Shown here: positions 37,445-62,770 of the stretch, in pieces
How the letters are laid out: each line of letters opens with the position of its first letter
How positions within the stretch are numbered: position 1 is the stretch's first letter
NCBI RefSeq assembly: GCF_008728195.1
Contig: NZ_CP031599.1
Span: 124,001-188,000 of the forward strand
Direction: 5' to 3'
From: Roseovarius indicus
Lineage (GTDB): Bacteria > Pseudomonadota > Alphaproteobacteria > Rhodobacterales > Rhodobacteraceae
DNA: 64,000 nt
Position numbers and translations under genes: made by a program
Notes under the pieces: model-generated
Told to the model about the DNA's origin: nothing
The model's input: the letters and a program-made list of their open reading frames with translations, nothing else
Database searches by the model: none

Positions 37445-37458
37445 CTAACGCCTGTTAG
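37445..37458. promoter_or_regulatory. CTAAC-N4-GTTAG operator, copy 1 (carboxylase operon)
   Basis: CTAACGCCTGTTAG, both half-sites perfect. It is placed 28 bases upstream of the tetR start that heads the carboxylase-bioY operon. It shares arms and 4-base spacing with five other sites in the catabolic island. Confidence 0.75.
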
Positions 37459-37561
37459 GTTAATAACGCAAGTGAGTCAATCGTCGTGATCGTGCCAGAC
37501 TAGAGTTTGCGGAAAATTCCGCATTGGCGACCGCCAAGAGGCCGCCCAGACATTAATGTGC

Positions 37562-37592
37562 TTGCCCGGACCCCGTCATCGGGTCCGGGCAA
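37562..37592 (-). terminator. Terminator hairpin after the SDR gene
   Basis: A perfect 12-bp stem, TTGCCCGGACCC (37562-37573) with GGGTCCGGGCAA (37581-37592), and a 7-base loop, beginning 6 bases past the stop of the SDR gene on the minus strand. There is only a weak T-rich tail. It separates the thiolase-SDR operon from the tetR operator region. Confidence 0.75.
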
Positions 37593-37597
37593 ATGCC

Positions 37598-38428
37598 TTA
37601 GATCACGAAACCGCCACCGCAGATGACGTGCTGGCCTGAAATGAAGTTAGCTTCGGGTGAGCAGAACAGATAGACGGCACCGGCAGCTTCTTCCGGAGTG
37701 CCGACCCGGCCCAACGGGATCATGCGCTCCATCTGGGACAGGAGATCGGGATTCACGCCGACCTTGATCTCTTTTTCTTCGACCTTGATCGTGCTGTCGC
37801 CATCCGCGCTGCCTTCGGTCAGGCGGGTTCGAATCGGGCCGAAGGCGACGGCGTTGACGTTGACCTTATAGCGGCCCCATTCCTTGGCCATCGTCCGGGT
37901 GACCCCTAGGATGCCGGCCTTAGCGGCGGAATAGTTGATCTGGCCAGCATTGCCGCCGGTCCCTGCGATGGACGAGATGTTGACTACCTTGCGGAACACC
38001 TCTTGCCCGGCGGCGGCCTCTTCCTTGGCCTTGGCGCTGATCACCGGCTGGGCAGCGCGCAGGATCTTGAAAGGTGCCGTCAGGTGGACGTCGATGATCG
38101 CCTGCCACTGTTCGTCGGACATCTTCTGAACGACGCTATCCCAAGTGTAGCCGGCGTTGTTCACGATGATGTCTAACCCGCCAAAGCTGTCCACGCCGGT
38201 CTTGATGAACCGTTCGGCAAAACCATCTTCGGTAACGCTGCCGGCACAGACCACGGCCTCAGCTCCCATTGCGCGCACCGCCTCGGCGGTTTCATTGGCC
38301 GGACCTGCGTCCAGATCGTTAATCACCAGCCGAGCCTCTTCCGAGGCCAGTTTGAGAGCGATTTCGCGGCCAATGCCCCGGCCCGAGCCCGAGACCAGCG
38401 CCACGCGACCGTTGAGTTTTCCAGTCAT
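37598..38428 (-). CDS. SDR-family 3-hydroxyacyl-CoA dehydrogenase-like oxidoreductase
   Basis: A 276-residue classical short-chain dehydrogenase. Cofactor loop SGSGRGIGREIA, then NNAGYTWDSV, the catalytic Ser in NISSIAG and the Tyr/Lys pair in NYSAAKAGILG. An insertion of about 10 residues before the Ser (KAKEEAAAGQEVFRK) is like the FabG/HSD10-related enzymes that act with the SCP2-type thiolase. It is cotranscribed with the thiolase gene, 24 bases downstream of it, and ends at a strong hairpin. It would oxidise a 3-hydroxyacyl-CoA for thiolysis. Confidence 0.85.
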   Translation of the reverse strand: MTGKLNGRVALVSGSGRGIGREIALKLASEEARLVINDLDAGPANETAEAVRAMGAEAVVCAGSVTEDGFAERFIKTGVDSFGGLDIIVNNAGYTWDSVVQKMSDEQWQAIIDVHLTAPFKILRAAQPVISAKAKEEAAAGQEVFRKVVNISSIAGTGGNAGQINYSAAKAGILGVTRTMAKEWGRYKVNVNAVAFGPIRTRLTEGSADGDSTIKVEEKEIKVGVNPDLLSQMERMIPLGRVGTPEEAAGAVYLFCSPEANFISGQHVICGGGFVI

Positions 38429-38452: not shown

Positions 38453-39637
38453 TCAGGCTTTTTCATAAAGCGTGGTGACGCAGGCCCCGCCGAGGCCCAG
38501 ATTGTGCTGAAGCGCCAGACGTGCGCCATCAACCTGGCGCGCATCTGCCTGGCCGCGAAGCTGCTGAACGAGCTCGGTACATTGCGCTAGGCCGGTCGCC
38601 CCAAGCGGATGGCCTTTGGACAAAAGACCGCCCGACGGGTTGGTCACGTATTTTCCGCCATAGGTGTTGTCGCCATCATCGACAAACTTCGCCGCCTCGC
38701 CACGCCCGCAAAGACCAAGCGCCTCGTAAGTGATAAGTTCGTTGTGGGCGAAACAGTCGTGCAGTTCGACCACATCCACGTCTTCGGGCCCGATGCCCGC
38801 GGTCTCATAGACCTGGTCGGCGGCATTCTTTGCCATCGAAAAGCCGACCACTTCGCGCATGTCATGGGCTTCGAAGGTTTCCGGTCCGTCCGTCGTCATG
38901 GCCTGCGCCGCGATCCGAACCGAACTGTCCAGTCCGTGTTTGTCGGCGAATTCCTTCGAACAAATGATCGCGGCGGCCGCGCCACAGGTTGGCGGACAGG
39001 CCATGAGCTTGGTCATCACGCCGGGCCAGACGACCTGGGCGGCCATGACATCTTCCGCCGTCACCTCCTGCCGGAACAGGGCAACCGGATTCTTCGCAGC
39101 ATGTCGGCTGGCCTTGGCGCGGATTTTGGCGAAGGTTTCCAGGGGTGTGCCGAACTCATCCATATGCGCCTTGCCCGCACCGCCGAAGTAACGCAGCGCC
39201 AGCGGGATCTCGGCGCTGCCAACCAGTTCGTCGGTTTCCTTGTCGAAAGCCGCGAACGGGCTGATCCGGTCATGGAACATCGCGCCGATCGCCCCGGGCT
39301 GCATCTGTTCGAACCCAAGCGCCAGAGCGCAGTCCACCGCATGGCTTTCCACGGCCTGACGGGCCAGGAACAGGGCGGACGATCCGGTCGAGCAGTTGTT
39401 GTTCACATTCACAACCGGGATGCCTGTCATTCCAACATGGTACAGGGCGCGCTGACCGCAGGTGCTGTCGCCATAGACATAGCCCACATAGGCCTGTTGG
39501 ACTTTATCATAATCCAACCCCGCGTCCGCCAAAGCAGAACGGGTGGCCGCAGTCGCCATCACATCATAGCTTTCGGATTTTCCCGGCTTCTGGAACGGGA
39601 CCATCCCGACGCCGGCAACATAGGCTTTGTCTGTCAT
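38453..39637 (-). CDS. SCP2/lipid-transfer-type thiolase
   Basis: A 394-residue thiolase of the SCP-x group. The acyl-accepting Cys is in NNNCSTGSSALF (about residue 82). The His motif is ELHDCFAHNELITYEALGLC, and the C-terminal block is GGLLSKGHPLGATGLAQ. The second Cys of classical thiolases is replaced, as usual in this class. These enzymes cleave 3-oxoacyl-CoAs, including methyl-branched ones, which classical thiolases handle poorly; this fits a branched-acid pathway. The start at 39637 follows a GAGAGAAG site. An operator copy lies 56 bases upstream. Confidence 0.88.
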   Translation of the reverse strand: MTDKAYVAGVGMVPFQKPGKSESYDVMATAATRSALADAGLDYDKVQQAYVGYVYGDSTCGQRALYHVGMTGIPVVNVNNNCSTGSSALFLARQAVESHAVDCALALGFEQMQPGAIGAMFHDRISPFAAFDKETDELVGSAEIPLALRYFGGAGKAHMDEFGTPLETFAKIRAKASRHAAKNPVALFRQEVTAEDVMAAQVVWPGVMTKLMACPPTCGAAAAIICSKEFADKHGLDSSVRIAAQAMTTDGPETFEAHDMREVVGFSMAKNAADQVYETAGIGPEDVDVVELHDCFAHNELITYEALGLCGRGEAAKFVDDGDNTYGGKYVTNPSGGLLSKGHPLGATGLAQCTELVQQLRGQADARQVDGARLALQHNLGLGGACVTTLYEKA

Positions 39638-39692: not shown

Positions 39693-39706
39693 CTACCATT
39701 TGTTAG
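39693..39706. promoter_or_regulatory. CTAAC-N4-GTTAG operator, copy 2 (thiolase operon)
   Basis: CTACCATTTGTTAG, one mismatch in the left arm. It sits 56 bases upstream of the thiolase start in the divergent region shared with the PaaY-like gene, where a further copy lies 82 bases away. Confidence 0.65.
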
Positions 39707-39774: not shown

Positions 39775-39788
39775 CTAACTTGTGTTTG
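39775..39788. promoter_or_regulatory. CTAAC-N4-GTTAG operator, copy 3 (PaaY-like gene)
   Basis: CTAACTTGTGTTTG, with one mismatch in the right arm, preceded by TTTT as in copies 2 and 4. It lies about 100 bases upstream of the PaaY-like gene start. Confidence 0.6.
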
Positions 39789-39890: not shown

Positions 39891-40502
39891 ATGGCATACT
39901 GTTATGAGTTCAAGGGTTTTATACCCGTCGTGCCCGAGGATACATATGTCCAACCCCAGGCCGTTCTGATCGGAAATGTCATCTTGGGTCATGGATGCTA
40001 CATCGGCCCCGGAGCAAGCTTGCGGGGCGATTTCGGCAGGATCGTGATCGGCGATGGAGCCAATGTTCAGGACAATTGCATCATCCATTCCTTTCCCGGC
40101 CGCGACGCCGTGGTGGAAAGCGACGGCCACATCGGCCATGGCGCGATCCTGCACGGTTGCACAGTGGGCCGGAACGCTCTGGTCGGAATGAATTCCGTCA
40201 TTATGGATGGTGTAGAGCTTGGGGCGGAATCGATTGTCGGCGCGCAGGCGTTTGTGCGTGGCGAAACCGTGATTCCGCCGCGTTCGATGGTGGTGGGATC
40301 GCCGGCAAAGGTGATCCGCGAGGTCAGCGAGAAAGAAATCGCGTGGAAAACGCGCGGCACCGCGGAATACCAGCAACTTGCGCGCGACTGTCTGGCCGGA
40401 TTGACGCCGGTCGAGCCGCTGAAGGCGGTCGAGGCAGACCGGCCCGGCATGGCGGCCTCTGACGTCGTCTCCATTCAGGAGGCGCGGCGGACATCGTCCT
40501 GA
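39891..40502 (+). CDS. PaaY-like gamma-carbonic-anhydrase-fold thioesterase
   Basis: A 203-residue left-handed beta-helix protein made of hexapeptide repeats ([18 protein letters not shown], then [20 protein letters not shown]). Metal-ligand histidines are visible in [20 protein letters not shown]. The sequence is closest to PaaY of phenylacetate pathways, which hydrolyses dead-end CoA thioesters to free CoA. It is the only plus-strand gene in this part and has its own operator copy. A rescue role for blocked CoA esters fits the cluster. The start at 39891 (MAYCYEFKG) follows GAAAGG. Confidence 0.85.
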
Positions 40503-40613: not shown

Positions 40614-42221
40614 TTACAGACGGAAGATCCCGTAGTGCGGATCGTCGATCGGTGCGTTGAGCGAGGCAGAAATCGACATGCCGAGCGCGTTGCGTGTGTC
40701 CGCCGGGTCGAGTATACCATCGTCCCACAATTCCGAGGTCGAGGTATAGGCTTCGACATCGCGCTTGTATTTTTCCAGCACCGGCTCTCGGATCGCGGCG
40801 ATTTCTTCTTCGGTCAACTCTTTGCCTTCGCGCTGAAGCTGCCGAATCTTGACGTCCGCCATGGTGTTGGCGGCCTGATCCGCGCCCATCACGCCGATTT
40901 CGGCCTGGGGCCACATGAACAGCGTGCGCGCATCCCAGGCCCGCCCACACATGCCGTAATTGCCGGCCCCGTAAGACGCATTGGCGATCACGGTGAACTT
41001 CGGCACGACCGAGCCGCCCTGCGCCATCAGCATCTTGGCGCCGTCCTTGGCGATGCCGCGTTCTTCGTATTCGCGGCCGACCATGTAGCCGGTGATGTTC
41101 TGGAAGAAGACCAGAGGCGTCCGGTTCTGGTTGCAAAGCTGCATGAAATGCGCGGCCTTGAGCGAGCTGTCGTTGAACAGCACCCCGTTGTTGGCAAGAA
41201 TGCCGACCTTGTAACCCCAGATATGGGCAAAGCCGCACACCATCGTGGTGCCATAGTCGGGCTGATACTCGTGAAAGCGTGAACCGTCCACGATCCGGGC
41301 CAGAACCTCGCGCATGTCGAACTGGGTTTTCCGGTCTTTTGGAACGATCCCGTAGAGTTCTTTGGGGTCATAGTAAGGCTCTTCATAGGCCGCGGTTTCG
41401 ATGATCGTTTTCGGCGTGCGCTTCCACTGGCCGACAATCTCGCGGGCCAATGAAAAGGCGTGTTGTTCGGTCGCGGCGCGATAGTCGCCGGTGCCCGATA
41501 CCGAGGTGTGCATGACCGCGCCGCCAAGCTCCTGAACGCCGACCTCTTCGCCGGTAGCCGCCTTGACCAGCGGGGGACCGCCAAGGAAAATCGCCCCTGT
41601 GCCTTCGATGATGATGTTGTAGTCGCTCAGCGTCGGCACATAGGCGCCGCCAGCCGTGCAGTGACCGCCGACCACGGCAATCTGCGGGATATTGGCCTGG
41701 CTCAGCTTGACCTGGTTGCGGAACACCCGCCCGCCCAGATACCGGTCGGGAAACACCCCGTGCTGCAGCGGCAGGAAACCGCCCGCGCTGTCGCAGATAT
41801 GGATGACCGGCAGACGGTTTTCCAGCGCGACATCCAGTAGGCGCACGATCTTTTTCACGGTATGCGGATACCAGGCACCGCCCTTGACGCTGGCATCGTT
41901 AGCGTGGATGGCGACCTCGCGGCCTTGCACGATGCCGATCCCCGTAACCACGCCTGCGCCGGGCACCACCCCGTCGTATTCACGACAGGCCGCCAAGGTT
42001 GAAAATTCCAAAAACGGAGTGCCGGGGTCCAGCAGCAGTTCCAGCCGCTCGCGCACGCCCAGCTTGTTCTGGCGGGCAAGGCGGTCGATATCGCGTTGCG
42101 GACGTTCGAAACGCGCCGTGTGCTGGCGAGCGTGGAATTCCTTCAGCCGTTCAGACATGGCGGCGAAATTTGCCTTGTAGTCGGCGGCATTGGTGTCGAT
42201 CTGACTTTCAATTCTGCGCAT
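40614..42221 (-). CDS. Acyl-CoA carboxylase beta subunit, AtuC/geranyl-CoA-type
   Basis: A 535-residue carboxyltransferase, paralogous to the one at 35185-36783. Marks: RLARQNKLGVRERLELLLDPG, ACREYDGVVPGAGVVTGIG, VAIHANDASVKGGAWYPHTV, DSAGGFLPLQHGVFPDRYLGG and GGHCTAGGAYVPTLSDY. GNYGMCGRAWDARTLFMWP is the C-domain oxyanion hole. The GGAWYPHTVKK and LQHGVFPD variants are like AtuC proteins. It is the last gene of the minus-strand operon hydratase-atuA-BC-BCCP-beta. The start at 42221 follows GGAGGAG, two bases after the carrier-protein stop; an in-frame GTG at 42227 is the alternative. Confidence 0.88.
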   Translation of the reverse strand: MRRIESQIDTNAADYKANFAAMSERLKEFHARQHTARFERPQRDIDRLARQNKLGVRERLELLLDPGTPFLEFSTLAACREYDGVVPGAGVVTGIGIVQGREVAIHANDASVKGGAWYPHTVKKIVRLLDVALENRLPVIHICDSAGGFLPLQHGVFPDRYLGGRVFRNQVKLSQANIPQIAVVGGHCTAGGAYVPTLSDYNIIIEGTGAIFLGGPPLVKAATGEEVGVQELGGAVMHTSVSGTGDYRAATEQHAFSLAREIVGQWKRTPKTIIETAAYEEPYYDPKELYGIVPKDRKTQFDMREVLARIVDGSRFHEYQPDYGTTMVCGFAHIWGYKVGILANNGVLFNDSSLKAAHFMQLCNQNRTPLVFFQNITGYMVGREYEERGIAKDGAKMLMAQGGSVVPKFTVIANASYGAGNYGMCGRAWDARTLFMWPQAEIGVMGADQAANTMADVKIRQLQREGKELTEEEIAAIREPVLEKYKRDVEAYTSTSELWDDGILDPADTRNALGMSISASLNAPIDDPHYGIFRL

Positions 42222-42223
42222 GG

Positions 42224-42727
42224 TCACTCCTCCTCCGGAGCCAATTGGGCCAGGATGTCTTTCAGACCAAAACTGTCGCCTTCGGCGAATGGCATTTCGG
42301 CAACGACCCCGTCGCGCGGCGCCGTCAGTGTGGTTTCCAACTTCATGCTTTCGATCACCAGAAGCGGCTGGCCTTCTTCAACCGCATCGCCGGGTTTAAC
42401 CGCAACTGACACCACGACACCCGGCATGGGCGCCACCAATCGGTCGTCGCTCGCGCCACCGTCGCTTCCGGCCAGGCGTTCGGCGGGATCAACCCGCCCG
42501 ACTTCGTAGGTTCGCCCGTCCATGTGCAAAAAAGTTGCTTCCGGCCCCACGGCCAGTCGCAATTCGCGCACAACACCCTTGGCCCGCAGCTTGTAACCGC
42601 CCGGCAGACCCGTCGGGTCCAATTGGCAGGCAACAGCGCCAGTGGGGGTATTGAGCACGAACCGGCTGCCATCATGACCCAGCCAGCAATCAGTCTCTTC
42701 TCCGTCGATCTGAAAAATCCGTTGCAT
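42224..42727 (-). CDS. Stand-alone biotin carboxyl carrier protein
   Basis: A 167-residue protein. Residues 1-85 are the small BT-like linker (QIDGEETDCWLGHDGSRFVL, then KLRAKGVVRELRLAVG). Residues 95-167 are a biotinyl domain, VAPMPGVVVSVAVKPGDAVEEG, with the acceptor Lys at about 129 in VIESMKLETT. In most methylcrotonyl- and geranyl-CoA carboxylases this part is fused to the biotin carboxylase, as in the other operon here; in this operon it is separate. Its ATG overlaps the biotin carboxylase stop by one base (TGATG), so the split is a gene fission and not a sequencing frameshift. It should swing between the adjacent BC and beta subunits. Confidence 0.9.
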   Translation of the reverse strand: MQRIFQIDGEETDCWLGHDGSRFVLNTPTGAVACQLDPTGLPGGYKLRAKGVVRELRLAVGPEATFLHMDGRTYEVGRVDPAERLAGSDGGASDDRLVAPMPGVVVSVAVKPGDAVEEGQPLLVIESMKLETTLTAPRDGVVAEMPFAEGDSFGLKDILAQLAPEEE

Positions 42728-44196
42728 CAGTTTCTCCACCCGCCCATCTTGCGGTACATTTCCGGTATCTGCATTACGTCACTCACCAGGCGCTCGTCCG
42801 ATAGGGCCGCCGCCGCTATCAGCAAGTCAGAGACATCTTCGCCCGGCGCGGTCAGCGTTTCGGATTGTTCAGCCAGGAAGCCAGTTGATACGTCACCAGA
42901 GGCGAAATCCGGATGTGCAAGTATTGCATCCAGGTAACCGGTGTTGGTCGTCACCCCGAGAATTACATAGTCTTGCACCGCTTGCCGCGCGAGGGCGATG
43001 GCCTGCGCGCGATCCGGGCCATGCACGATCAGCTTGGACAACATCGGGTCGAAGTCGGTTGTCACCTTGCCGCCGTCCAGAATGCCGCTGTCCACGCGGA
43101 TCCCCTCGCCCATGGGTTCGTCCAGCAGCAGGATATCCCCGATCGCGGGGCGGAAATCGGCGGTCGCATCCTCGGCGCAGATGCGCAGTTCGATCGAGTG
43201 TCCGGTTTGGGGAATATCCACCTGCGCGGCGCTCAAGCCCTTGCCTGCCGCGATGCGCAGCTGCTCGGCAACCAGATCGAAGCCGGTCACCATCTCGGTC
43301 ACCGGATGTTCGACCTGAAGGCGGGTGTTCATTTCCAGGAAATAAAAGGCCCCGTCCTGCGCATAGATGAATTCAACGGTCCCTGCCCCGCGATAGTTGA
43401 CGGCGCGGGCAATTCCGGCAGCGGTTTCGCAGATCTCACCCCGTTGCTCGGGGGTCAGCGCCGGAGAGGGCGTTTCCTCGATAATCTTCTGGAACCGGCG
43501 CTGGATCGAACATTCGCGTTCCCAGAAATGGACCACGTTGCCTTGCCCGTCGCCCATCACCTGCACCTCGATATGGCGCGGGCGTTCGATATAGCGTTCG
43601 ACAAACAGGCGGCCGTCACCGAAATACCGTTCGCCTTCGCGGCGCGCGGTTTCGATTTCGGTCTCCAGCGTGCTGTCTTCGCGTACGACGCGCATGCCCT
43701 TGCCGCCACCCCCGGCCGAGGGCTTGATGAGCAGCGGATAGCCAACGGCGCGGGCGCGTTCGACAAAGCTCGCCGGATCATCATCCTCGATCGCCGAGGG
43801 GGCGACGGGAAACCCGCGTTCCTCGACAAAGGCACGGGCGCGGACCTTGTCCCCCATCAGGTCGATGACCTCGGACGTCGGGCCGACAAAGGTCACTCCG
43901 GCTTTTTCCAGCGCCGCGACAAAACCGGCATTCTCTGACAGAAAGCCATAGCCGGGATGAACCGCGTCCGCGCCGATCCCTTTGGCGGCTTCGACGATCT
44001 GAGGAATATCGAGATAGGCGGCCACGGGCGTCGGGCCGTCGATCATCACGACCTCATCTGCGATCAGATGCGCCGGCCCCTCTTGCTCGGCGACATGACG
44101 CAACACGGCCGTCGCAAGCCCGCGGGCCTTGGCGGTGCGCAACACGCGCGCCGCGATCTCACCCCGATTGGCGACCAGGAGTTTCGAAATGGTCAT
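42727..44196 (-). CDS. Biotin carboxylase subunit without carrier domain
   Basis: A 489-residue ATP-grasp biotin carboxylase: KLLVANRGEIAARVLRTAKA at the start, AVHPGYGFLSENAGFVAAL, the glycine-rich KPSAGGGGKGMRVV, then HIEVQVMGDGQGNVVHFWERECSIQRR (quoted in part) and FLEMNTRLQVEHPVTEM. It ends soon after the B-CT-C region with PEMYRKMGGWRN and has no BCCP part. The next gene supplies that. With it and the beta subunit it forms a second carboxylase, probably for geranyl-CoA or a related 3-methyl-2-enoyl-CoA, given the AtuA neighbour. Confidence 0.9.
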   Translation of the reverse strand: MTISKLLVANRGEIAARVLRTAKARGLATAVLRHVAEQEGPAHLIADEVVMIDGPTPVAAYLDIPQIVEAAKGIGADAVHPGYGFLSENAGFVAALEKAGVTFVGPTSEVIDLMGDKVRARAFVEERGFPVAPSAIEDDDPASFVERARAVGYPLLIKPSAGGGGKGMRVVREDSTLETEIETARREGERYFGDGRLFVERYIERPRHIEVQVMGDGQGNVVHFWERECSIQRRFQKIIEETPSPALTPEQRGEICETAAGIARAVNYRGAGTVEFIYAQDGAFYFLEMNTRLQVEHPVTEMVTGFDLVAEQLRIAAGKGLSAAQVDIPQTGHSIELRICAEDATADFRPAIGDILLLDEPMGEGIRVDSGILDGGKVTTDFDPMLSKLIVHGPDRAQAIALARQAVQDYVILGVTTNTGYLDAILAHPDFASGDVSTGFLAEQSETLTAPGEDVSDLLIAAAALSDERLVSDVMQIPEMYRKMGGWRN

Positions 44197-44208
44197 GGTG
44201 TCGTCCTC

Positions 44209-46008
44209 TTAGTTCGGGTTCGCGGCATTCAGTCCGTCACGTGCGGCCAGATCGGCTGGCACGGGAATTTCGATATCAAGCAGCATCTGCGCGAACCCTT
44301 TGCCCTGCGGGTCTATGCGGACCGAGGCGATGCCGCCACCGCCAAGCGATTCATGCAACAGGAAATTCAGCGAATGGCTTCCAGGCAAGTCGAACCGTTC
44401 TACCCTGCCGTCGCAGACATGGGCGAAATAGTCCTTCACCACCTCTTCGCTGAGAGCCGAGCGGATGTATGGCAGGTAGTCCGGCTTGCGCGCGAGGATG
44501 CCGATATTGGCGATGTCCCCCTTGTCGCCCGAGCGGCCCCAGGCCAGATCGACGAGGCGGACCTTGACAACGTCCGGACCGGGCTCGCGGCTATCTGCGG
44601 GCGGTGCGGCAGGCGGATCAAGGTGGACTGGCGTGGCGGCCACGCGCACGGGCACATCCTTGCCGTCGACTTCGACCGCGACGGGGGTCTCGGCCTTGCT
44701 CTGAAGGAAGGAAAATAGACGGACCACCGGCTGCACCTTTGGCCGTCCGGCGAAGAACCCGGTCAGACCCTGCGCGGTCGAAATCGCCATCGGTGCGATT
44801 TCGCCGGCAAAGATGTTCAGCGCGGCGCGATCGTCATGGACCGCGCCGATCTTGAGCACCACCTCGCGGGTCCGGGCGCGCGCATTTGCGCCATAGGCCG
44901 CCTCGGCCCCCAGCACCTCGACGCTGACCTGCCGGAAATCTCCAATGTTGCGGTCGCGGAAAATCCGGCGACAGCGGGTCAGGATCGCCTCGGCCACACG
45001 TTCGGCCTTGGCGGGTGCGTCAATCGCGGCCAGTGTCAGGGTAGAGACCGCGCGCCAGCCATCGGCATGGGTCGCCGACACCTTGTAGCTGTCGGTGCGC
45101 CCAAGCCCCCTGCCGCCCTTGACCAGCACCCGGTCGGGTCCGACCTGTTCTAGGGTGACCCCGGACCAGTCGCAGATCACGTCGGGCAACAGGTAGGCGC
45201 GCGGGTCCCCGATTTCATAGAGCATCTGCTCTCCGACTGACCCGGGCACGACCAGCCCGCCGGTGTCAGGCGTCTTGGTTATGATGAAACTGCCGTCTTC
45301 GGACACCTCGACGATGGGCATGCCCATATTGTCCCAACCCGGCACGTCCTGCCAGTCGGTGAAGTTGCCGCCCGTTCCCTGGGGGCCGCATTCGATCAGG
45401 TGGCCGGCCAGCGATCCCTGGCTGAGCTTGTCCCAGTCATCGTCGCCCCAGCCGTATTCATGCATCAGGGGACCAAGCGCGACCGCGCTGTCCGCGCAGC
45501 GTCCGGTGATCACGATGTCGGCCCCGGCATCCAGCGCGGCAGCGATGGGGCGGGCACCCAGATAGGCATTCATGCTCCAAATGTCGTCTGGAAATTCGTT
45601 ACCCGAGAACATTTCCGTCTGACCATTTTTGCGAATTTCATCGGCCCTAGGCAACAGGTCATCGCCCAGCACGACTCCGATGGACAGATCGATCCCGGCC
45701 TGGGCGGCGGCTTTGGCAAGCGCATCGCTGCAGCCACGCGGGTTCACGCCCCCGGCATTGGCAACGACCTTGATCCCTTTTGACTTGATATCCGGCAACC
45801 AGGGTGCCAGCGCCTTGACGAAGTCCGGCGCATAGCCCGACTCGGGCGCTTTGGCGCGGGCCCGCGCCATCAGCGACATTGTCACCTCTGCCAGATAGTC
45901 AAACACCAGATAGTCGATCTCGCCCTTTGAGACCAGTTGACCGATCGCTTCCGGCGTATCGCCCCAGAAGCCCGACGCGCATCCGATGCGCAGCTTTCGT
46001 TCCGACAT
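44209..46008 (-). CDS. atuA: Acyclic terpene utilisation AtuA-family protein
   Basis: A 599-residue protein of the AtuA (DUF1446) family. The N-terminal 450 residues carry IGCASGFWGDTPEAIGQLV, LVFDYLAEVTMSLMARA, VVANAGGVNPRGCSDALA, VITGRCADSAVALGPLMHEYGW and LIECGPQGTGGNFTDW. The last 110 residues are the AtuA-like ferredoxin-fold domain (LVDLAWGRSGDKGDIANIGI, LPGSHSLNFLLHESLGGGGI), which in some species is a separate gene. AtuA is needed for growth on citronellol/geraniol in Pseudomonas; its reaction has been proposed to be the acyl-CoA cleavage step after hydration, not proven. It is the strongest marker that this operon handles an isoprenoid-like acid. Confidence 0.9.
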   Translation of the reverse strand: MSERKLRIGCASGFWGDTPEAIGQLVSKGEIDYLVFDYLAEVTMSLMARARAKAPESGYAPDFVKALAPWLPDIKSKGIKVVANAGGVNPRGCSDALAKAAAQAGIDLSIGVVLGDDLLPRADEIRKNGQTEMFSGNEFPDDIWSMNAYLGARPIAAALDAGADIVITGRCADSAVALGPLMHEYGWGDDDWDKLSQGSLAGHLIECGPQGTGGNFTDWQDVPGWDNMGMPIVEVSEDGSFIITKTPDTGGLVVPGSVGEQMLYEIGDPRAYLLPDVICDWSGVTLEQVGPDRVLVKGGRGLGRTDSYKVSATHADGWRAVSTLTLAAIDAPAKAERVAEAILTRCRRIFRDRNIGDFRQVSVEVLGAEAAYGANARARTREVVLKIGAVHDDRAALNIFAGEIAPMAISTAQGLTGFFAGRPKVQPVVRLFSFLQSKAETPVAVEVDGKDVPVRVAATPVHLDPPAAPPADSREPGPDVVKVRLVDLAWGRSGDKGDIANIGILARKPDYLPYIRSALSEEVVKDYFAHVCDGRVERFDLPGSHSLNFLLHESLGGGGIASVRIDPQGKGFAQMLLDIEIPVPADLAARDGLNAANPN

Positions 46009-46029
46009 ATTCCTCTCCTCCCCGCTTGA

Positions 46030-48163: not shown

Positions 48164-48176
48164 GGGAGACGAGACA

Positions 48177-51038: not shown

Positions 51039-51050
51039 AGGAAAGATCGC

Positions 51051-53342: not shown

Positions 53343-53407
53343 TAGTGCAAGGAACGTTCCGAATCAAGTTCTTTGCCAAGATGATAACGGAAGAGGAGGA
53401 CCTCCAT

Positions 53408-54169: not shown

Positions 54170-54282
54170 AGCCATGACAGCAGCGCCGGACACAAGGCGT
54201 TGCTGCCAAACCGTGCCAAGAGTTACCTCCCCGACTGGCCGCGCCTTTTGTGCGGCCCTTTCTCATTCTAGAAAGGTTGCGA

Positions 54283-56220
54283 ATGTTTCAGCCAGGCTCT
54301 GAAATCCAGCGGACAAGCACGCTGACCGCATTTCTGAAAGACTGTGGAATTCACAGTTACGAGAAGCTCGTCCGCCGTTCGAATGAAGACCCAGACTGGT
54401 TCTGGGGCCGGATCATCGACCATGCCGGGATACGGTTCGCGCGGCCCTACAGCCGGTTGCGAGATATCTCCACAGGGCCTGAATCGATCAGATGGGCCGT
54501 GGAAGGTACGTTGAATCTGACGGAAACCTGTCTTGACGCCCGAATTGCCGATGGCCTGGGTAACAAGGTCGCTATCGACTGGGTCGGCGAAGACGGAAGC
54601 CGCCGCCGCTGGAGCTATTGCAACCTTGCCGCCGAAGCCTCCCGCGTCGCCTCGGCCCTTGCCACGCGCGGTGTAAGGCCCGGTCAGGCGGTGGGCATCT
54701 ATATGCCGATGATCCCCGAAATCGAGGCCGCGCTTCTGGGTATTGCCCGGCTGGGCGCGGTTGCGGTGCCGCTGTTTTCCGGTTTTGCGCCCCATGCCAT
54801 CGTATCGCGCCTGAACGACGCGGATGCCGTGGCGGTGTTGACGGCGGATGCCACACCCCGGCGAGGCAAGCCGGTCTGGATGGAGGCGAGCCTCGCCCAG
54901 GCTTTGACCGACCTGCCATCGGTTCATACCGTGATCAGCCTGCGACGGTTCGGCGGTGCGGTGGCCGATCCGGCCCGCGATCTGGACTGGACCGAAACAG
55001 TGGGCCGCGCCAGTCCGGAGTTTGCCGCCGTTCCCGTCAGTGCCGATGACACCTTTCTGATCGCCTATACGTCAGGCACCACCGGACGGCCCAAGGGCGT
55101 CGTGCATACCCATCTGGGCGTGCAGGCCAAGGCCACGGCCGATTTCCTGCTTTGCCTCGACATGAAACGGGACGACCGGCACCTCTGGATGACTGACATG
55201 GGGTGGGTCATGGGGCCGCTCACCCTTTTGTCGGTGCTCTTGTCCGGTTCGACTCTGGTGCTGGCCGAAGGCGCACCATCAATGCCCGGCGATCCCTTCA
55301 GGCTGCTGCGTCTTGCGTCCGATATGGAGGTCACGCATCTTGGTGTGGCTCCGACCCTGGTACGGCAGTTCATGACGCAGGATACTGAACCTTTGTTGGG
55401 CTACGACCTGTCGCCCCTGCGCATTGTCGCCTCGACCGGTGAACCCTGGACCGACGATGCCTGGCTTTGGCAACTGGATCATATCTGTAGCCGCCGCGCG
55501 GTGCCGCTGAACATCTCGGGTGGGACCGAGCTTTTTGGCGCGATCCTTACCTCGACCGTGCTGCATGAAATCAAGCCCGGCGGATTTTCGGCCCAGGCCC
55601 TGGGTGTCGGCGCCAAGGTGCTGCGTGAAGACGGCAGCGAAGCCGCACCGGGCGAGGTCGGCGAACTGGTCGTGACCCAGCCGCCTCTGGGTCTGACCCC
55701 GGCCATCTGGGGGGACCGCGATCGCTACCTTGAAACCTACTGGTCCACCTTCCCCGGCCTCTGGCGGCACGGCGACTGGGTGCGCTGCGATCCGGACGGG
55801 ACATGGTATATCCTGGGCCGGTCGGACGACACGCTGAACATCGCCGGCAAACGCATCGGCCCGCCCGAGATCGAGGCGGCCCTGACCGAAACCGGAGAGG
55901 TGGTGGACGCCGCTGCCATCGCGGCACCTGATGACATCAAGGGCGTGGCCGTCGTCTGCGTCTGCGTGGCGGCACCAAATGTGTCGCCGGACGCGGAGCT
56001 CGTGAACCGGCTCAAGGATCGTGTCGGAGAGATCGTCTCGAAACCCTTCCGCCCGCGCGAGATCCACTTTGTCGAAGCGCTGCCCAAGACCCGCAGCATG
56101 AAAACCATGCGCCGTGTCGTGCGCGCCGCCTTTCTCGGTGAAGATCCGGGCGATCTGTCGTCGATCAGCAACCCGGAAACCATTCAGCCCATCGCAGACC
56201 TGCAAAAGGAAAAGTCATGA
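54283..56220 (+). CDS. Acetyl/acetoacetyl-CoA-synthetase-like AMP-forming acyl-CoA ligase
   Basis: A 645-residue adenylate-forming enzyme. Core motifs: AYTSGTTGRPKGVVHTH (A3), NISGGTELFGAIL (A5), WRHGDWVRCDPDGTWYILGRSDD (A7/A8, quoted in part) and the adenylation Lys in PKTRSMKTMRR, where the usual Gly before the Lys is Met. The overall plan follows acetyl- and acetoacetyl-CoA synthetases, not FadD. It would activate a free acid at the entry to the pathway, comparable to AtuH in position and role. The ATG at 54283 is preceded by GAAAGG. It overlaps the next gene by four bases. Confidence 0.87.
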   Translation: MFQPGSEIQRTSTLTAFLKDCGIHSYEKLVRRSNEDPDWFWGRIIDHAGIRFARPYSRLRDISTGPESIRWAVEGTLNLTETCLDARIADGLGNKVAIDWVGEDGSRRRWSYCNLAAEASRVASALATRGVRPGQAVGIYMPMIPEIEAALLGIARLGAVAVPLFSGFAPHAIVSRLNDADAVAVLTADATPRRGKPVWMEASLAQALTDLPSVHTVISLRRFGGAVADPARDLDWTETVGRASPEFAAVPVSADDTFLIAYTSGTTGRPKGVVHTHLGVQAKATADFLLCLDMKRDDRHLWMTDMGWVMGPLTLLSVLLSGSTLVLAEGAPSMPGDPFRLLRLASDMEVTHLGVAPTLVRQFMTQDTEPLLGYDLSPLRIVASTGEPWTDDAWLWQLDHICSRRAVPLNISGGTELFGAILTSTVLHEIKPGGFSAQALGVGAKVLREDGSEAAPGEVGELVVTQPPLGLTPAIWGDRDRYLETYWSTFPGLWRHGDWVRCDPDGTWYILGRSDDTLNIAGKRIGPPEIEAALTETGEVVDAAAIAAPDDIKGVAVVCVCVAAPNVSPDAELVNRLKDRVGEIVSKPFRPREIHFVEALPKTRSMKTMRRVVRAAFLGEDPGDLSSISNPETIQPIADLQKEKS

Positions 56221-57071
56221 TCACTGTTTTCGGAGCCACGGGCACGACTGGCGCGCCCCTCGTCGATACGCTTATGGCAAAAGGCGCGACCGTGCGCGCT
56301 GTCACCAGCGACCCCTTCAAGTTAGACGCGCTAAAAGCCAAAGGATGCGAGGCGGTCGCAGCGGATTTCACGGACCCTGCCGCGCTGGCGCGGGCCTGTG
56401 ACGGGGCGGAAAAGATATACCTGGTCACGCCTGCCCATCTGGACATGCGTCAGTGGAAGGCGAACGTGATCGAGGCGGCCAAGGCCGCGGGCGTGCGCCA
56501 TATCGTTGTGGCCACGGGGCTTGGCGCGTCGCCCAAGGCGGGGCTGACCTTTGGAAAGTGGCATTCCGAAACCCAGGAACTGCTGAAGCAAAGCAGCCTT
56601 GACTGGACTTTTGTCCAGCCGACCTATTTCATGCAGAACCTGCTGTGGCAGGCCGGCAACATTGCAAAGGACGCCGTGTACTATGACGACGTGGGCGGAC
56701 CCGTGGCCTGGATCGACGCTCGCGACATCGCGGATGTCGCCGCCGAGGCGCTGACCGCTCCGGGGTACGAAGGCAAGGCTCTTGGTCTGACCGGGCCCGA
56801 AGCTCTTGCAGGGGATGACATCGCGGCCCTTCTGTCCGGAGTGACGGGACGAACAGTGTCGTGCGTGTCCCTTTCGGCCGAGGATGCCAGGGCGGGCATG
56901 GTGGCCGGCGGAATGCAGGACGAGGTCGCCGGGGCCATGGTCGAACTGGCCTCTATCGCGCCCAGGGGCTACCTAGCCGGCATCGAGACCACGGTCAGCG
57001 AGGTGCTGGAGCGCCCGGCGCGCCGATTTGCCGATTTCGTCACCGAGAACCGGGATGCTTTCGTCAAGTAA
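56217..57071 (+). CDS. NmrA-like NAD(P)-binding protein
   Basis: A 284-residue atypical SDR with the N-terminal loop ITVFGATGTTGAPLVDTLM and the NmrA/QOR2-type segments VVATGLGASPKAGLTFGKWH, WTFVQPTYFMQNLL and DARDIADVAAEAL. It may be a quinone reductase or a redox-sensing protein; the substrate is unknown. Its start overlaps the ligase stop (ATGA) and it is five bases from the AraC-type gene, so the three are cotranscribed. Confidence 0.82.
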   Translation: MITVFGATGTTGAPLVDTLMAKGATVRAVTSDPFKLDALKAKGCEAVAADFTDPAALARACDGAEKIYLVTPAHLDMRQWKANVIEAAKAAGVRHIVVATGLGASPKAGLTFGKWHSETQELLKQSSLDWTFVQPTYFMQNLLWQAGNIAKDAVYYDDVGGPVAWIDARDIADVAAEALTAPGYEGKALGLTGPEALAGDDIAALLSGVTGRTVSCVSLSAEDARAGMVAGGMQDEVAGAMVELASIAPRGYLAGIETTVSEVLERPARRFADFVTENRDAFVK

Positions 57072-57075
57072 CCTG

Positions 57076-57780
57076 ATGGCGGCGCCGCTTTATCTCGAAC
57101 TGGCGCCGCCTGAGGAAGCGGCCACTGAGATCGATCATCTGTTCGTGTTTCGCGATACCGGTGTGCTGAGCGGTGGTGGACGCGGGCGGTTCGCAACCGA
57201 CCTCTTTACCCTTTCGGTAACGCGCGACCACAGCGGCGGGGCGCGTGTATCGCTGGCGCCACCGCGCTCGGGTTTCACTCTCCGCCCAAGGCCATTCCAT
57301 GGTGTCGTGGCCGGGCTGAGGTTGTCGTCACGACCGAAGCACTTACCCGACTCCAAAGGGCTGGACATGCTGGCCGCAGAACTGGCCCGGGTTCAGATCG
57401 GGGACGGTGACCTGCCCGCGCTCATCGCAGTGCTTGACGGCCTCGCGAGAGACCTGCGCTTTGCCGCACCAACCGGAGCTTACAGCGACCGGACCAAACG
57501 TCGAAAGGTGCGGGCGGAAACCGGCGTGTCGCGGCGGCGGCTTGCGACCTTGCGACGCTTTCGCCGGGCTCTCGGGCAGCTTGCGTCAAAGACCCTGCCG
57601 CTGAGCGATCTGGCGCTGGACGCCGGATATTACGATCAATCTCACTTGTCCGCCGCTTGCCGGATCTTCGCCGACAAACCGCCCGGCGCGTTGCGCGCTC
57701 TGTCTATTCCGCGTCGTTTTGACCTTTCGCTACAAGATACGCGCCTCAAAGACCGCCTAAGATTGGTCATTGACGAATGA
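57076..57780 (+). CDS. AraC-family regulator
   Basis: A 234-residue protein whose last 90 residues contain two helix-turn-helix units of the AraC type (TGVSRRRLATLRRFRRAL and LALDAGYYDQSHLSAACRIFADKPPGA). The N-terminal 130 residues are DUF6597/AraC-associated-like, with no cupin motif recognised. It lies within the operon after the NmrA-like gene and might fine-tune it. The start at 57076 was chosen because the in-frame start at 57028 lies inside nmrA; the ribosome site is weak, so coupling is likely. Confidence 0.75.
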   Translation: MAAPLYLELAPPEEAATEIDHLFVFRDTGVLSGGGRGRFATDLFTLSVTRDHSGGARVSLAPPRSGFTLRPRPFHGVVAGLRLSSRPKHLPDSKGLDMLAAELARVQIGDGDLPALIAVLDGLARDLRFAAPTGAYSDRTKRRKVRAETGVSRRRLATLRRFRRALGQLASKTLPLSDLALDAGYYDQSHLSAACRIFADKPPGALRALSIPRRFDLSLQDTRLKDRLRLVIDE

Positions 57781-57801
57781 AATCGAAGAGGAAGACCCGC
57801 C

Positions 57802-58257
57802 ATGACGCAATTCAAACCGAAAAACCCCGACTATGACGCACGCGTGCGCGACAGTTTCGATCGCCAGAAGGTGATGAACACGTTGGGGATCAGCATTGCC
57901 GAGCTATCGCCCGGCCGCATTGTTCTGGAGATGGCACATGAGGATGCCCTGACCCAGCAACATGGGTTTTTGCATGCCGGAATCGTGTCGACAGCGCTGG
58001 ACAGCGCCTGCGGATACGCGGCCTTTTCGCTGATGCCCGCAGAAGCGGCCGTTTTGACAGCCGAATTCAAGATCAACCTGCTCAACCCGGCGGACGGCGA
58101 ACGGTTTCGCTTCGTCGCTGACGTGGTGAAACCAGGCAGGACGCTGACCATATGCGAGGCGCGTGCCTATGCCGTGAAGGGCCAGGATGAAAAGCTCGTC
58201 GCAACGATGACCGGAACGCTCATGGCGCTGGTCGGGCGGGCCGGGGTCGCGGGCTGA
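57802..58257 (+). CDS. PaaI-type hotdog thioesterase
   Basis: A 151-residue hotdog thioesterase. The active region is LTQQHGFLHAGIVSTALDSACGYAAF, with ELSPGRIVLEM before and AEFKINLLNPADGERFRF after it. It is the third such enzyme of the island and the last gene of the plus-strand operon. GAAGAGGAAGAC precedes the ATG. A symmetric hairpin follows the stop. Confidence 0.88.
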   Translation: MTQFKPKNPDYDARVRDSFDRQKVMNTLGISIAELSPGRIVLEMAHEDALTQQHGFLHAGIVSTALDSACGYAAFSLMPAEAAVLTAEFKINLLNPADGERFRFVADVVKPGRTLTICEARAYAVKGQDEKLVATMTGTLMALVGRAGVAG

Positions 58258-59118: not shown

Positions 59119-60657
59119 CTATTGGCTGCGCGCCTTTTCATCAGCGATCCTGATCTCGAGCATATGGTGCTGGATCTTGCCGCTGGTCGATCTGGGAAAG
59201 TCCTCTAACGCGATGAAGCGAATTTCGCGCGGTCGCTTATAGCCAGCCAGGCTTTCGCGGCACAAGTTCAGCAGCGCCTCGGCATCCGGCCCGTCATCGT
59301 CAAAGGCAACAAAGGCCACCGGGCTTTCCCCCCATTTCGCGTCGAAGGCCCTGACCACGGCGGCATCGATCACATCGGGATGCGAAAGAAGCACACGTTC
59401 GATTTCCGCCGGATAGACGTTTTCACCTCCGGTCTTGATCAGGTATTTCGCCCGATCCACAAAGTCGAGGCTGCCGTCCGCATTGCGCCGGAACAGATCG
59501 CCCATGTGGAAAAAGCCGTTGCGAAAATCGCGGGCGTTGGTGTCGTCGGCGTTCCAGTACCCGGAAAACAAAGTCGGGCCCCGCACAGCCATTTCGCCCG
59601 GCGTTCCATCCGCCACGTCGCGGTCGTCGGGATCGACCAGCCGAACCTCGCAAAACGCGCTTATGCGCTTGGAAAGCCGGTCCGGGGTCACACCCGGCGC
59701 AATCAGATCGGCGGTTCCCGGCGGCAGGCCGGTTTCAGTTGCGCCGAAGGAATTCAGATAGGGCGTGTCCAGAAGGGCCGTCAGTTCGGCGATCTGATGC
59801 GGCGGCACCAGATCGGCCATTGCGCCACAAACCTTGATCCCCTTCAGCGGCAAAGGGTTGGCGCGTCGTTCTGCGATAAAGGCGTCCAGCGCACCGGGCA
59901 TCATCACGAACCAGCCGATCCGGTGGCGCGACAACGCCTCGTTGATGACCGCAGGCAGCAAACCGTCTACCATCACCACGGTTCCGCCCCGAAGGACCGT
60001 CGCCAGCGCATGATCAGTGGACGCCATGTGGAACATAGGTGCCCAGGCGATGAACCCGTCACAGGGATCCAGTGCCAGCTGCGCGGCAAAAGCCATGGAG
60101 CGGGCGATATGCGCGCGGTGGCTGATGAGCGCCCCTTTGGGCAGACCCGTAGTCCCCGAGGTATACAAGATCGTCAGACCAGCCTCTGGATCGTCGACCA
60201 TGGTCCCGATGCGCGGGTCTTGCTCGGCCCCGGCAATGGCCGTTTCCAGGTCTGGCCCGATGGTCAGACAGGGTGTCGACGCGACGGCGTGATACATTTC
60301 TGAAAAGTCCGGTTCGACGATCGCGAGCACCGGCTCGACCAGATCGATGCAGTGCCACAGTTCATCGGGGGCAAGCCGCCAGTTCAGGCAAGCGACAATC
60401 GCGCCAATTCCTGCCGCTGCCAGTTCGACCTCCAGGTACTCCGAGCGGTTATGCGACAGAATCGCGATCCGGTCGCCGGGCGCCACGCCCCTGGCCAGAA
60501 ACACGGCAGCCAGACGATCGACCCTCCCCAGCAATTCGGCATAGCTCAGTCTCTTGCTGCCGTCCTCGATGGCCAGATCCCCCGCGCAATCCTGTGCGCG
60601 GGTTCGAAAGATCGAATAAAGGTCGGCGCGTCCTGCACGCGAAACTTCGGTCAGCAT
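59119..60657 (-). CDS. FadD-like AMP-forming acyl-CoA ligase
   Basis: A 512-residue adenylate-forming ligase. Motifs: LYTSGTTGLPKGALISHRA (A3), NSFGATETGLPPG (A5), FHMGDLFRRNADGSLDFVDR (A7), YLIKTGGENVYPAEIE (A8) and the Lys in RSTSGKIQHHM (A10). It resembles ligases for alicyclic or medium-chain acids (AliA- or FadK-like). It is cotranscribed with the OYE-like reductase gene, 27 bases downstream of it, under operator copy 6. It gives the island a second entry point beside the ligase at 54283. Confidence 0.88.
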   Translation of the reverse strand: MLTEVSRAGRADLYSIFRTRAQDCAGDLAIEDGSKRLSYAELLGRVDRLAAVFLARGVAPGDRIAILSHNRSEYLEVELAAAGIGAIVACLNWRLAPDELWHCIDLVEPVLAIVEPDFSEMYHAVASTPCLTIGPDLETAIAGAEQDPRIGTMVDDPEAGLTILYTSGTTGLPKGALISHRAHIARSMAFAAQLALDPCDGFIAWAPMFHMASTDHALATVLRGGTVVMVDGLLPAVINEALSRHRIGWFVMMPGALDAFIAERRANPLPLKGIKVCGAMADLVPPHQIAELTALLDTPYLNSFGATETGLPPGTADLIAPGVTPDRLSKRISAFCEVRLVDPDDRDVADGTPGEMAVRGPTLFSGYWNADDTNARDFRNGFFHMGDLFRRNADGSLDFVDRAKYLIKTGGENVYPAEIERVLLSHPDVIDAAVVRAFDAKWGESPVAFVAFDDDGPDAEALLNLCRESLAGYKRPREIRFIALEDFPRSTSGKIQHHMLEIRIADEKARSQ

Positions 60658-60684
60658 GGTCTCCCCCCTTGCGCGGGCTTCGGT

Positions 60685-62727
60685 TCAGAGACCCTGCGCC
60701 AGGCGCACGCCCTCATCAATGGCGCGCAGCGCATCCAGTTCGGCGGCCTCCTTTGCCCCGCCGATCATCGTAACCGGGACGCTGCGTGCGGTAAGCTCTT
60801 GGGCCAGGGCCCGTTCCGGTTCCTGACCGGTGCACAGCACAATTGTATCGGCTGCGATGACCTTTGGCATTCCGTCCGCGACGATGTGCAGCCCCGCGTC
60901 GTCGATATGTTCATAGGTCACCCCGCCCATGGCCTCGACCCCATGTTTGCGCAGCGCGTTGCGCAGGATCCACCCTGTCGAAACACCAAGCCCTGCACCG
61001 GGTTTAGCGGTCTTGCGCTGCAGCATGACGACCTTGCGGCGCGATGGCTTCGGTGCCAGAGGGTCGCCCGCCAGGGCACCCGAGGAGACAAATTCGGGGT
61101 CCACACTCCAGGTTTCGCAAAAGACGTCGGAATTGGCGGTCTCGGCGGGTTTGGTCACTAGGAACTCGGCCACATCATGACCGATGCCCCCCGCCCCCAT
61201 CACCACGACACGGTCGCCCGCCTCGCGGTCACCGGACAGAATTTCGGCGTAGGTCGCGACGCTGGGATGGTCGATACCCGGCAGGTCGGGAATGCGCGGC
61301 GTGACCCCGGTGGCGATGACCACATGGTCAAATCCCTCAAGATCGCTCGCCTCTGCCCGCTGTCCCAGACGCTGCGTGACCCCGTGTTTCTGCATCTGAC
61401 CGGCATAATACCGCAGGGTTTCGTCGAATTCGTCCTTGCCTGGTGCGGCGCGGGCCAGATTCAGCTGACCGCCCAATTTGTCCTGCGCTTCGAACAGGGT
61501 GACATCGTGGCCCAGCCGCGCCGCCTCGGCGGCTGTGGCCATGCCCGCGGCACCACCGCCAACGACGGCCACTTTCTTTGGGGTGTCGGTTGGCGTATCC
61601 CGGAATTCCGTTTCACGCCCGGCCCTTGGATTGACCAGACATCCGACCGGACGATCCGAAAAGATGAAATCCAGACAGGCCTGGTTGCAGGCGATGCAAG
61701 TGTTGATCTCGTCCGAGCGGCCCTCGCGCGTCTTTTTCACGAAATGCGGATCAGCAAGAAACGGTCGCGCCATCGAGATCATGTCCGCATCGCCAGAGGC
61801 AAGTATGTCTTCTGCAAGCTGGGGTGTGTTGATCCGGTTTGAGGCGACCACCGGGATCGACACGGCCGCTTTCACGTTGGCTGCCGCCTTGCGCCAGGCA
61901 CCGCGGGGCACTGGGTAGGCGATCGTCGGCACGCGGGCCTCATGCCAGCCGATGCCGGTGTTCAGGATATCCGCACCCGCAGCCTCGATCTTGCGGGCCA
62001 GTGCGGCAATTTCATCGGCGGGCGCGCCGCCCTCGACCAGATCGGCCGCCGAAATCCGGTAGATGACCAGAAAGTCGGGGCCGCAACGTTCGCGCACCGC
62101 GCGCACGATCTCGACCGGGAACCGGTGGCGGTTCGCGGCGCTGCCGCCCCAGTCGTCTTGGCGCTTGTTGGTGTGGGTTACGGTGAACTCGTTGATGAGG
62201 TAGCCCTCGGACCCCATGATCTCGATGCCATCGAAGCCTGCAGCCTGCGCATTGGCGGCCGCCACGGCAAAATCCTCGATGGTACGGAGAATGTCGGCTT
62301 CGGTCATTTCACGCGGGATGAACCGGTTGATCGGGGCGCGGATCGGCGACGGGGCCACACACCCTTCGATCTTTGCATATCGCCCGGCGTGGAGGAGTTG
62401 CGCGCAGATCAGGCTGCCTTCGGCCTGCACCGCCTCGCAGATCGGGCGCAGGCCAAGCGCTTCTTCCGGATCATCGATTCGCGGACCTTCTGGATCGAAT
62501 ATACCCTCGGCATTGGGCGAAAACCCGCCAGTGACCAGAAGCGCCGCCTCCCCCCGCGCCCGCTCGGCGTAAAACGCGATCTGTTTGGCTATGCCGTCAG
62601 GCTCGGTTTCCAACCGCGTGTGCATCGACCCCATGATGACCCGATTTCGCAATGTATGCTGGCCTGCGCGGATGGGCGAGAGCATGGTCCCAAAGCTCTC
62701 CGTTGGCTTATTTTCCACTGTGGGCAT
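60685..62727 (-). CDS. OYE-type 2,4-dienoyl-CoA reductase-like flavoprotein
   Basis: A 680-residue multi-cofactor flavoenzyme built like FadH. Residues 1-340 are an FMN barrel of the old-yellow-enzyme type (RNRVIMGSMHTRLET, GEAALLVTGGF, GFDGIEIMGSEGYLINEF). A 4Fe-4S cluster site is CIACNQACLDFIF with the later GCLVNPRAGRE. The C-terminal half binds FAD and NAD(P)H (VAVVGGGAAGMATAAEAARLG, VVVMGAGGIGHDVAEFLV). It would reduce conjugated double bonds in an enoyl- or dienoyl-CoA. The start at 62727 was chosen; operator copy 6 lies about 30 bases upstream. Confidence 0.9.
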   Translation of the reverse strand: MPTVENKPTESFGTMLSPIRAGQHTLRNRVIMGSMHTRLETEPDGIAKQIAFYAERARGEAALLVTGGFSPNAEGIFDPEGPRIDDPEEALGLRPICEAVQAEGSLICAQLLHAGRYAKIEGCVAPSPIRAPINRFIPREMTEADILRTIEDFAVAAANAQAAGFDGIEIMGSEGYLINEFTVTHTNKRQDDWGGSAANRHRFPVEIVRAVRERCGPDFLVIYRISAADLVEGGAPADEIAALARKIEAAGADILNTGIGWHEARVPTIAYPVPRGAWRKAAANVKAAVSIPVVASNRINTPQLAEDILASGDADMISMARPFLADPHFVKKTREGRSDEINTCIACNQACLDFIFSDRPVGCLVNPRAGRETEFRDTPTDTPKKVAVVGGGAAGMATAAEAARLGHDVTLFEAQDKLGGQLNLARAAPGKDEFDETLRYYAGQMQKHGVTQRLGQRAEASDLEGFDHVVIATGVTPRIPDLPGIDHPSVATYAEILSGDREAGDRVVVMGAGGIGHDVAEFLVTKPAETANSDVFCETWSVDPEFVSSGALAGDPLAPKPSRRKVVMLQRKTAKPGAGLGVSTGWILRNALRKHGVEAMGGVTYEHIDDAGLHIVADGMPKVIAADTIVLCTGQEPERALAQELTARSVPVTMIGGAKEAAELDALRAIDEGVRLAQGL

Positions 62728-62756
62728 CCTCCTCAAAACTACGCTTGATTTGCATT

Positions 62757-62770
62757 CTAACATTTGTTAG
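62757..62770. promoter_or_regulatory. CTAAC-N4-GTTAG operator, copy 6 (reductase-ligase operon and dehydrogenase)
   Basis: CTAACATTTGTTAG, both arms perfect, extended to TCTAAC...GTTAGA. It is in the 84-base divergent region between the OYE-like reductase (62727) and the acyl-CoA dehydrogenase (62812). Confidence 0.8.

Follow-up and report, generated by a model that had tools for sequence, protein, structure and literature searches.

The stretch of DNA analysed here (the window) comprises 64 kb of the genome of Roseovarius indicus (6.17 Mb in five contigs, numbered C1, C2 and so on; G000 in our samples), from C2:124001 to 188000, and contains a catabolic island in which one short inverted repeat, a candidate operator, recurs next to the genes. 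The pattern CTAAC-N4-GTTAG (14 bp), scored over the whole window with 0–1 mismatch, was found at six places, with no seventh. Three of them are perfect: 37445..37458 (CTAACGCCTGTTAG), upstream of a gene coding for a single-domain TetR protein (TetR1) and its operon; 53327..53340, between the divergent genes for a double TetR protein and a BadH-like dehydrogenase; and 62757..62770, between divergent genes related to the old yellow enzyme (OYE) and to BadJ. The other three have one mismatch: 39693..39706 lies upstream of a thiolase gene, 39775..39788 upstream of a PaaY-like gene, and 46893..46906 between the divergent genes ECH2 and ACAD2. No strand is assigned to any of them. A previous reading of the letters alone (the sequence-only reading) had given these positions and mismatch numbers and had placed every copy in a promoter or divergent region; both statements hold, and there is no other match at this level in the window.

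The half-site is the best of its kind at this locus. Among the 30 distinct orderings of its letters, CTAAC comes first with six matches in the window (three perfect), the runner-up having three. At two mismatches there are seven further places, and these were dropped from the regulon because their number is near the chance level (6.1 expected in all at up to two mismatches). When the window was scored with a symmetric matrix, made from 21 different 14-mers that stand at double-TetR promoters in other records, the six operators took ranks 1 to 6 (24.8 to 13.1 bits, the weakest being 39775) and rank 7 had 10.7 bits; these 14-mers had been chosen with the same pattern, so the scan ranks the sites and is no fresh test of the motif. 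Windows simulated with a Markov model held 0.3 sites at the 13.1-bit threshold, with a maximum of two in 200. The operator at 62757–62770 overlaps the first possible ATG of the gene 60685–62763, which therefore probably starts further downstream. A promoter scan at this place gave a single weak promoter-like match, on the - strand and overlapping the operator (0.2 expected).

Two genes of the island code for TetR proteins. TetR1 (36788..37417, - strand; one TetR_N and one TetR_C_24 domain) is likely a local regulator of the operon behind it, and its best sequence match in the PDB is Mce3R, to the second half of that protein (78.8 bits). The other protein, of 454 amino acids (51916..53280, - strand), has each of the TetR_N and TetR_C_24 stretches twice, i.e., two complete TetR domains in a single polypeptide, and is likely the main regulator. 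Aligning the query with 57 of the 120 homologues listed (58 sequences) showed the residues of both its recognition helices to be invariant or nearly so. The genome contains 33 TetR_N matches, of which 30 were examined as loci; the helix pattern GS.YYHF.SK was present in only four of them, and the same four only held the operator. These four loci correspond to three genes, TetR1, the double TetR (two loci) and a third paralogue at C1:1227651-1228268, whose nearest site is ca. 0.3 kb from the gene. Hence the claim of the sequence-only reading that two TetR genes of the island stand next to a site of their own was right for both, and has to be amended in that a third TetR elsewhere also has a site nearby and that 51916–53280 is a two-domain fusion.

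The same pattern with up to one mismatch was searched in the whole genome, and 23 places were found, eight of them perfect. Three catabolic clusters on two contigs take 15 of the 23, including all the perfect ones: six at C1:1223617-1238331, six in the island and three at C2:265988-285886. The motif is thus clustered, which answers the expectation of the sequence-only reading that it would favour these promoters over random positions of the genome. The island alone (34.4 kb, 0.6% of the genome) takes six of the 23 places (binomial P ~3e-9) and three of the eight perfect ones (P ~9e-6), its interval having been picked after the fact for both values. The cluster on C1 (L046 5618-14424, L047 319-332) has four one-mismatch and two perfect sites over genes for an AMP-ligase, a CoA-transferase III, an electron transfer flavoprotein, an acyl-CoA dehydrogenase, an OYE-type enzyme, a LysR protein and the third TetR. 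An orthologous cluster is present without the island in G068 (L089). The second cluster on C2, of CaiB type, codes for three CoA-transferases III, a thiolase-type protein with a ChsH2-like partner, MaoC, acyl-CoA dehydrogenases and a branched-chain-type ABC transporter. Some cluster sites fall within the first bases of called frames (e.g., L046 8189, 10633), since the gene calls take the longest frame. The regulon is therefore larger than the island, as two further clusters carry the operator. The prediction of a single TetR regulon survives as an operator-tied regulon, upheld by the clustering over the genome and by the footprinting and co-occurrence described below; it fails in being neither confined to the island nor in the hands of one ordinary TetR, there being three genes.

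The conservation of the operator was assessed by footprinting within the genus, using R. indicus and nine other genomes (G125 was left out). Fifty promoter regions were sought, ten were absent, and all of the 40 examined had the operator with at most one mismatch, while each of 29 scrambled half-sites was found in 0 or 1 of the same 40 promoters. The 37445 operator was kept (0–1 mismatch) in the eight examined genus genomes with TetR1. On a wider scale, species genomes were scanned for the double TetR; 158 stretches were confirmed and 80 loci kept, and in 78 of these an operator, palindromic within one mismatch, was located upstream of the double-TetR gene. Over 48 distinct sequences the half-site columns hold 1.42–2.00 bits, the middle spacer column 0.10 and the far-flank columns 0.31–0.81. 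The first position of the spacer prefers a purine and the last a pyrimidine, therefore the consensus can be written CTAAC-R-NN-Y-GTTAG. One could suppose that the sites belong to another regulator family, or that they were inherited with the island and have no function, the evidence being all comparative and the flank on the gene side being conserved too. However, the half-sites stay where the central spacer and the far flank vary, and the sites recur in separate clusters, with the scrambled patterns virtually absent from the same promoters; we find this explanation so improbable that it deserves hardly any weight. In many loci (L151-L230) a conserved GCAATGGACA-type stretch adjoins the operator upstream of the double TetR. 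It contains an in-frame ATG that meets a stop in several species, so that a promoter element and a short leader are both conceivable. The ATG, 12 codons before the start used here and conserved in many loci, was considered as the start of the double TetR and not adopted, its frame having a stop in several of them.

Which of the three proteins reads most of the sites is best approached by co-occurrence. Among 79 genomes of the genus, the 11 with a double TetR hold 5–8 perfect sites and the other 68 hold 0–2 (for G120-G126, seven genomes in all, presence of the double TetR was decided by the TetR1 search, in which its halves also come up). Among 149 genomes of the family, the four with a double TetR (R. 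indicus included) hold 6–8 and the other 145 hold 0–2. Joining both samples, five or more perfect sites are found in 14/14 genomes with the double TetR and in 0/213 without it. A pair of perfect sites 2.8–3.7 kb apart, the mark of the CaiB-type cluster in R. indicus, is present in at least 11 of the 14; the genes beneath it were inspected in G000, G046 and G070. The double TetR is thus probably the main regulator, and TetR1 and the third paralogue look local. It might be held that TetR1, as an ordinary homodimer, governs all six sites and that the double TetR has another role. The operator at the start of TetR1 itself agrees with this, and so does the site found at the start of single-domain relatives in genomes devoid of the double TetR (perfect in G111, one mismatch in G072 and G020). 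But in G015 and G070, which have the double TetR and lack TetR1, the other promoters present keep their sites, these genomes having six and five perfect ones, respectively, and genomes with only a single-domain relative have just 0–2 perfect sites (G131, G157, G164, G212, G236, G263, G020, G004 and G060; for the first six, from the family sample, the comparison was with the C half of the double TetR and not with TetR1 itself). Control of all the sites by TetR1 is accordingly quite improbable.

As a whole, we regard it as likely that a group of related TetR repressors uses CTAAC-R-NN-Y-GTTAG as its operator, the double TetR being the main reader and the paralogues acting locally. The sites, their conservation, the fusion and the co-occurrence are results of computation and the fold is a prediction; the binding, the repression, the ligand and the division of labour that we infer would work as follows. 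The chain of the double TetR would fold as a built-in pseudo-dimer, so that each half-site receives one of its two helix-turn-helix units. It would repress its own gene, the island promoters of ECH2/ACAD2, thiolase and PaaY, BadH and OYE/BadJ, and also the separate cluster at C2:266-286 kb, until an acyl-CoA intermediate of the pathway binds to it and releases it from the DNA. At its own carboxylase operon TetR1 would use these half-sites as a local regulator, and the third paralogue (C1:1227651-1228268) would act likewise at the C1:1.22-1.24 Mb cluster. That these are acyl-CoA-responsive TetR proteins is a reasonable guess by analogy, from the similarity of their predicted fold to the solved structures of AibR, FadR and KstR2.

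The three paralogues might instead bind all the sites interchangeably, forming one cross-talking network with no main regulator. Half-site, spacing and recognition-helix pattern are indeed the same in all three, and identical 14-mers are found at 53327, C1:1226188, C1:1232410 and C2:265988. Within the genus, however, the sites of TetR1 promoters differ by eye just outside the 14-mer, suggesting that targets are sorted, although this flank difference is absent in G111, from outside the genus. We consider such shared control unlikely.

Several observations weigh against assigning the leading role to the double TetR, or the regulon to this operator. Shared descent and shared horizontal transfer of the sites and the double TetR account for part of the co-occurrence and reduce the independence of its counts, which Fisher tests overstate; the genome samples also include the genomes of nine of the 80 loci. 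The single-domain-only genomes G111, G072 and G020 keep sites at their TetR gene, as said above, so that the sites cannot be assigned to the double TetR alone; G097, also single-domain-only, has a perfect site too, but 2.7 kb from its TetR, and G068, with only the cluster of the third paralogue, has two perfect sites. Two of the 80 loci lack the operator, one cut by a contig edge and one from Acidocella. The flank toward the TetR gene reaches 1.85 bits, so conservation extends past the half-sites. A sigma-70 promoter scan at 53327 found none, which leaves unsupported our placing by eye, from conserved columns, of the operator between the -35 and -10 of the BadH promoter. Finally, eight of the 23 places in the genome are outside the three clusters. 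One, C2:225745, is located between divergent genes, while C4 has four and C1 three; two of the eight fall within called frames, C1:1481204 close to the beginning of its frame and C1:1503078 at the end.

Three of the four C4 places were excluded from the regulon as resembling another motif. At C4:110123-114341 (L053 7124, 10300, 11329) there are three copies of a related palindrome, CTGACGCA.GTTAG, on either strand and beside small called frames, which is probably the motif of another regulator.

The double-TetR group was found in many genera of the Roseobacter clade and in Rhizobiales. A tree of 52 TetR domains groups the N halves in a clade of their own (support 99/96) and likewise the C halves (91/97, which is below the star of the tree program), and the two are sisters (97/96); the tree was rooted at its midpoint and carries a long-branch warning for the outgroups. 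Since the two clades are sisters, the sequences suggest one internal duplication and fusion predating the split of the Roseobacter-clade and Rhizobiales copies. In G078, from outside the genus, a single-domain TetR lies beside the BadH-like gene, and the TetR/BadH and OYE/BadJ pairs have sites with one mismatch, at their called starts or a little inside them, for which reason the operator may be older than the fusion. One genome, G025, has two double-TetR genes, L066 376-1746 (77% identical to the query) and L067 15509-16804 (55%), and there is a one-mismatch site upstream of both.

The described protein most like it in architecture is Mce3R, a double TetR-family repressor (PDB 9b7y) whose structure is called the first of a double TetR repressor in PMC11667970; such repressors are described as infrequent, and among the literature matches listed Mce3R is the sole natural fused TetR protein. 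The predicted structure of the double TetR (predicted TM score 0.83) matches 9b7y over the whole chain. Its sequence scores no higher against Mce3R (56.6 bits) than against single-domain TetRs (78.7 bits). According to the same paper, Mce3R has 25-bp non-palindromic sites and halves homologous to distinct TetR subgroups, whereas here the apparent operator is a near-perfect palindrome and the halves are sister clades with 42% identity. Neither an asymmetric operator of the Mce3R kind, in the 78 of 80 loci with an apparent operator, nor halves from different subgroups, in the tree of 52 domains, were found. It is possible, and we advance it with some doubt, that the double TetR had a single origin by internal duplication and acts on a symmetric palindrome as a pseudo-dimer made of a single chain, the opposite of the Mce3R arrangement, and that the fusion insulates a master repressor from forming mixed dimers with two paralogues that use the same operator in the same cell. 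If true, one operator code would be common to three repressors without cross-dimerisation. The group has an operator that is a clear candidate, with its target promoters listed, and offers a test case for why a repressor should become fused with a copy of itself.

In combining a TetR protein with a palindromic operator at scattered catabolic promoters, the system is similar to the KstR, BkaR, PsrA, LiuQ and FadP regulons. The operators differ: the KstR core (TnnAACnnGTTnnA) has AAC-N2-GTT in place of the AAC-N4-GTT found here, and that of BkaR, GTTA(N)T(N4)A(N)TAAC, has the half-sites in the opposite order. Against the KstR model of NCBIfam (cut-off 280) the double TetR scored 48.1 bits and TetR1 22.3, and against the PsrA equivalog of Vibrio (cut-off 300) 78.4 and 54.0, all far below. 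In PMC5343134 LiuQ and FadP are called unique to betaproteobacteria, and LiuR is a MerR protein there. The island also recalls the acyclic terpene utilisation cluster of Pseudomonas, in that a protein of the AtuA type (by Pfam here) occurs with a carboxylase, dehydrogenases and a TetR nearby. In Pseudomonas the TetR near this cluster is AtuR. Among the matches listed, no title or start of an abstract named the operator or the island, and a search for acyclic terpenes, roseobacters and plasmids together found none, most subscription papers being outside its coverage.

There are signs that the island is mobile. Its 20-kb core matches 49 plasmid records of marine Rhodobacterales, 13 of them covered over at least 80% and with identity up to 95.8%; the genera include Marinovum, Sulfitobacter, Paracoccus, Roseibium, Sagittula and Phaeobacter. 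Of 27 loci of ca. 20 kb, five were compared with the other 26. Over the parts that align, identity was 89.8–98.6% in spite of the many genera of origin, and this points to horizontal transfer of the island. A transposase gene of the DDE_Tnp_IS240 type (IS6-like) is located just before it, at 28604–29320. The operator sites would give a regulon map for mobile catabolic islands of marine bacteria.

The genes under the operator look like those of an acyl-CoA pathway. Behind TetR1, all on the - strand, are a carboxyltransferase of an acyl-CoA carboxylase (CT1, 35185..36777; best NCBIfam model below its cut-off), an enoyl-CoA hydratase (34380..35174; PRK07468 over the cut-off, the gamma-carboxygeranoyl-CoA hydratase model below it), a biotin carboxylase with a biotin carrier domain (32374..34395) and an acyl-CoA dehydrogenase (31211..32386), the models being below their cut-offs for the last two. 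The frame named bioY in the sequence-only reading (30596..31162, - strand) has no NCBIfam match, and gene order would place it in the regulon. Also on the - strand are a dehydrogenase assigned by family search to the short-chain dehydrogenase/reductase (SDR) family (37598..38428) and the thiolase, of lipid-transfer-protein type (38453..39637; PRK08256 over the cut-off). The PaaY-like hexapeptide-repeat protein (39891..40502, + strand) scored 288.1 bits for a cut-off of 319.6. A likely operon at 40614..46815 (- strand) codes for the carboxyltransferase CT2, a biotin carrier, a biotin carboxylase, AtuA (PF07287) and ECH2, and another at 46952..51533 (+ strand) for two acyl-CoA dehydrogenases, an SDR protein, an enoyl-CoA hydratase and a thioesterase. 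The likely operon at 53405..58257 (+ strand) comprises the BadH-like dehydrogenase (TIGR03206, 370.8 bits, below the cut-off of 431.2), an acyl-CoA ligase, an NmrA-like protein, an AraC-like protein (by eye) and a thioesterase; the family search gave no NCBIfam match for its frame 57073–57780. An acyl-CoA ligase and the OYE/FadH-like flavoenzyme follow at 59119..62763 (- strand; family search), and then the BadJ-like acyl-CoA dehydrogenase at 62812..63993 (+ strand; TIGR03207, 523.7 bits, cut-off 575.4). This set, with AtuA, several carboxylases and BadH- and BadJ-like enzymes (the last two below the cut-offs of their models), points to branched, terpenoid or alicyclic acids as candidate substrates. 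By gene content the island extends past the end of the window, to ca. 11.7 kb into L051, with a further carboxylase and dehydrogenases. The two adjacent acyl-CoA dehydrogenase genes at 46952–49376 have similar family profiles and are perhaps a tandem duplication.

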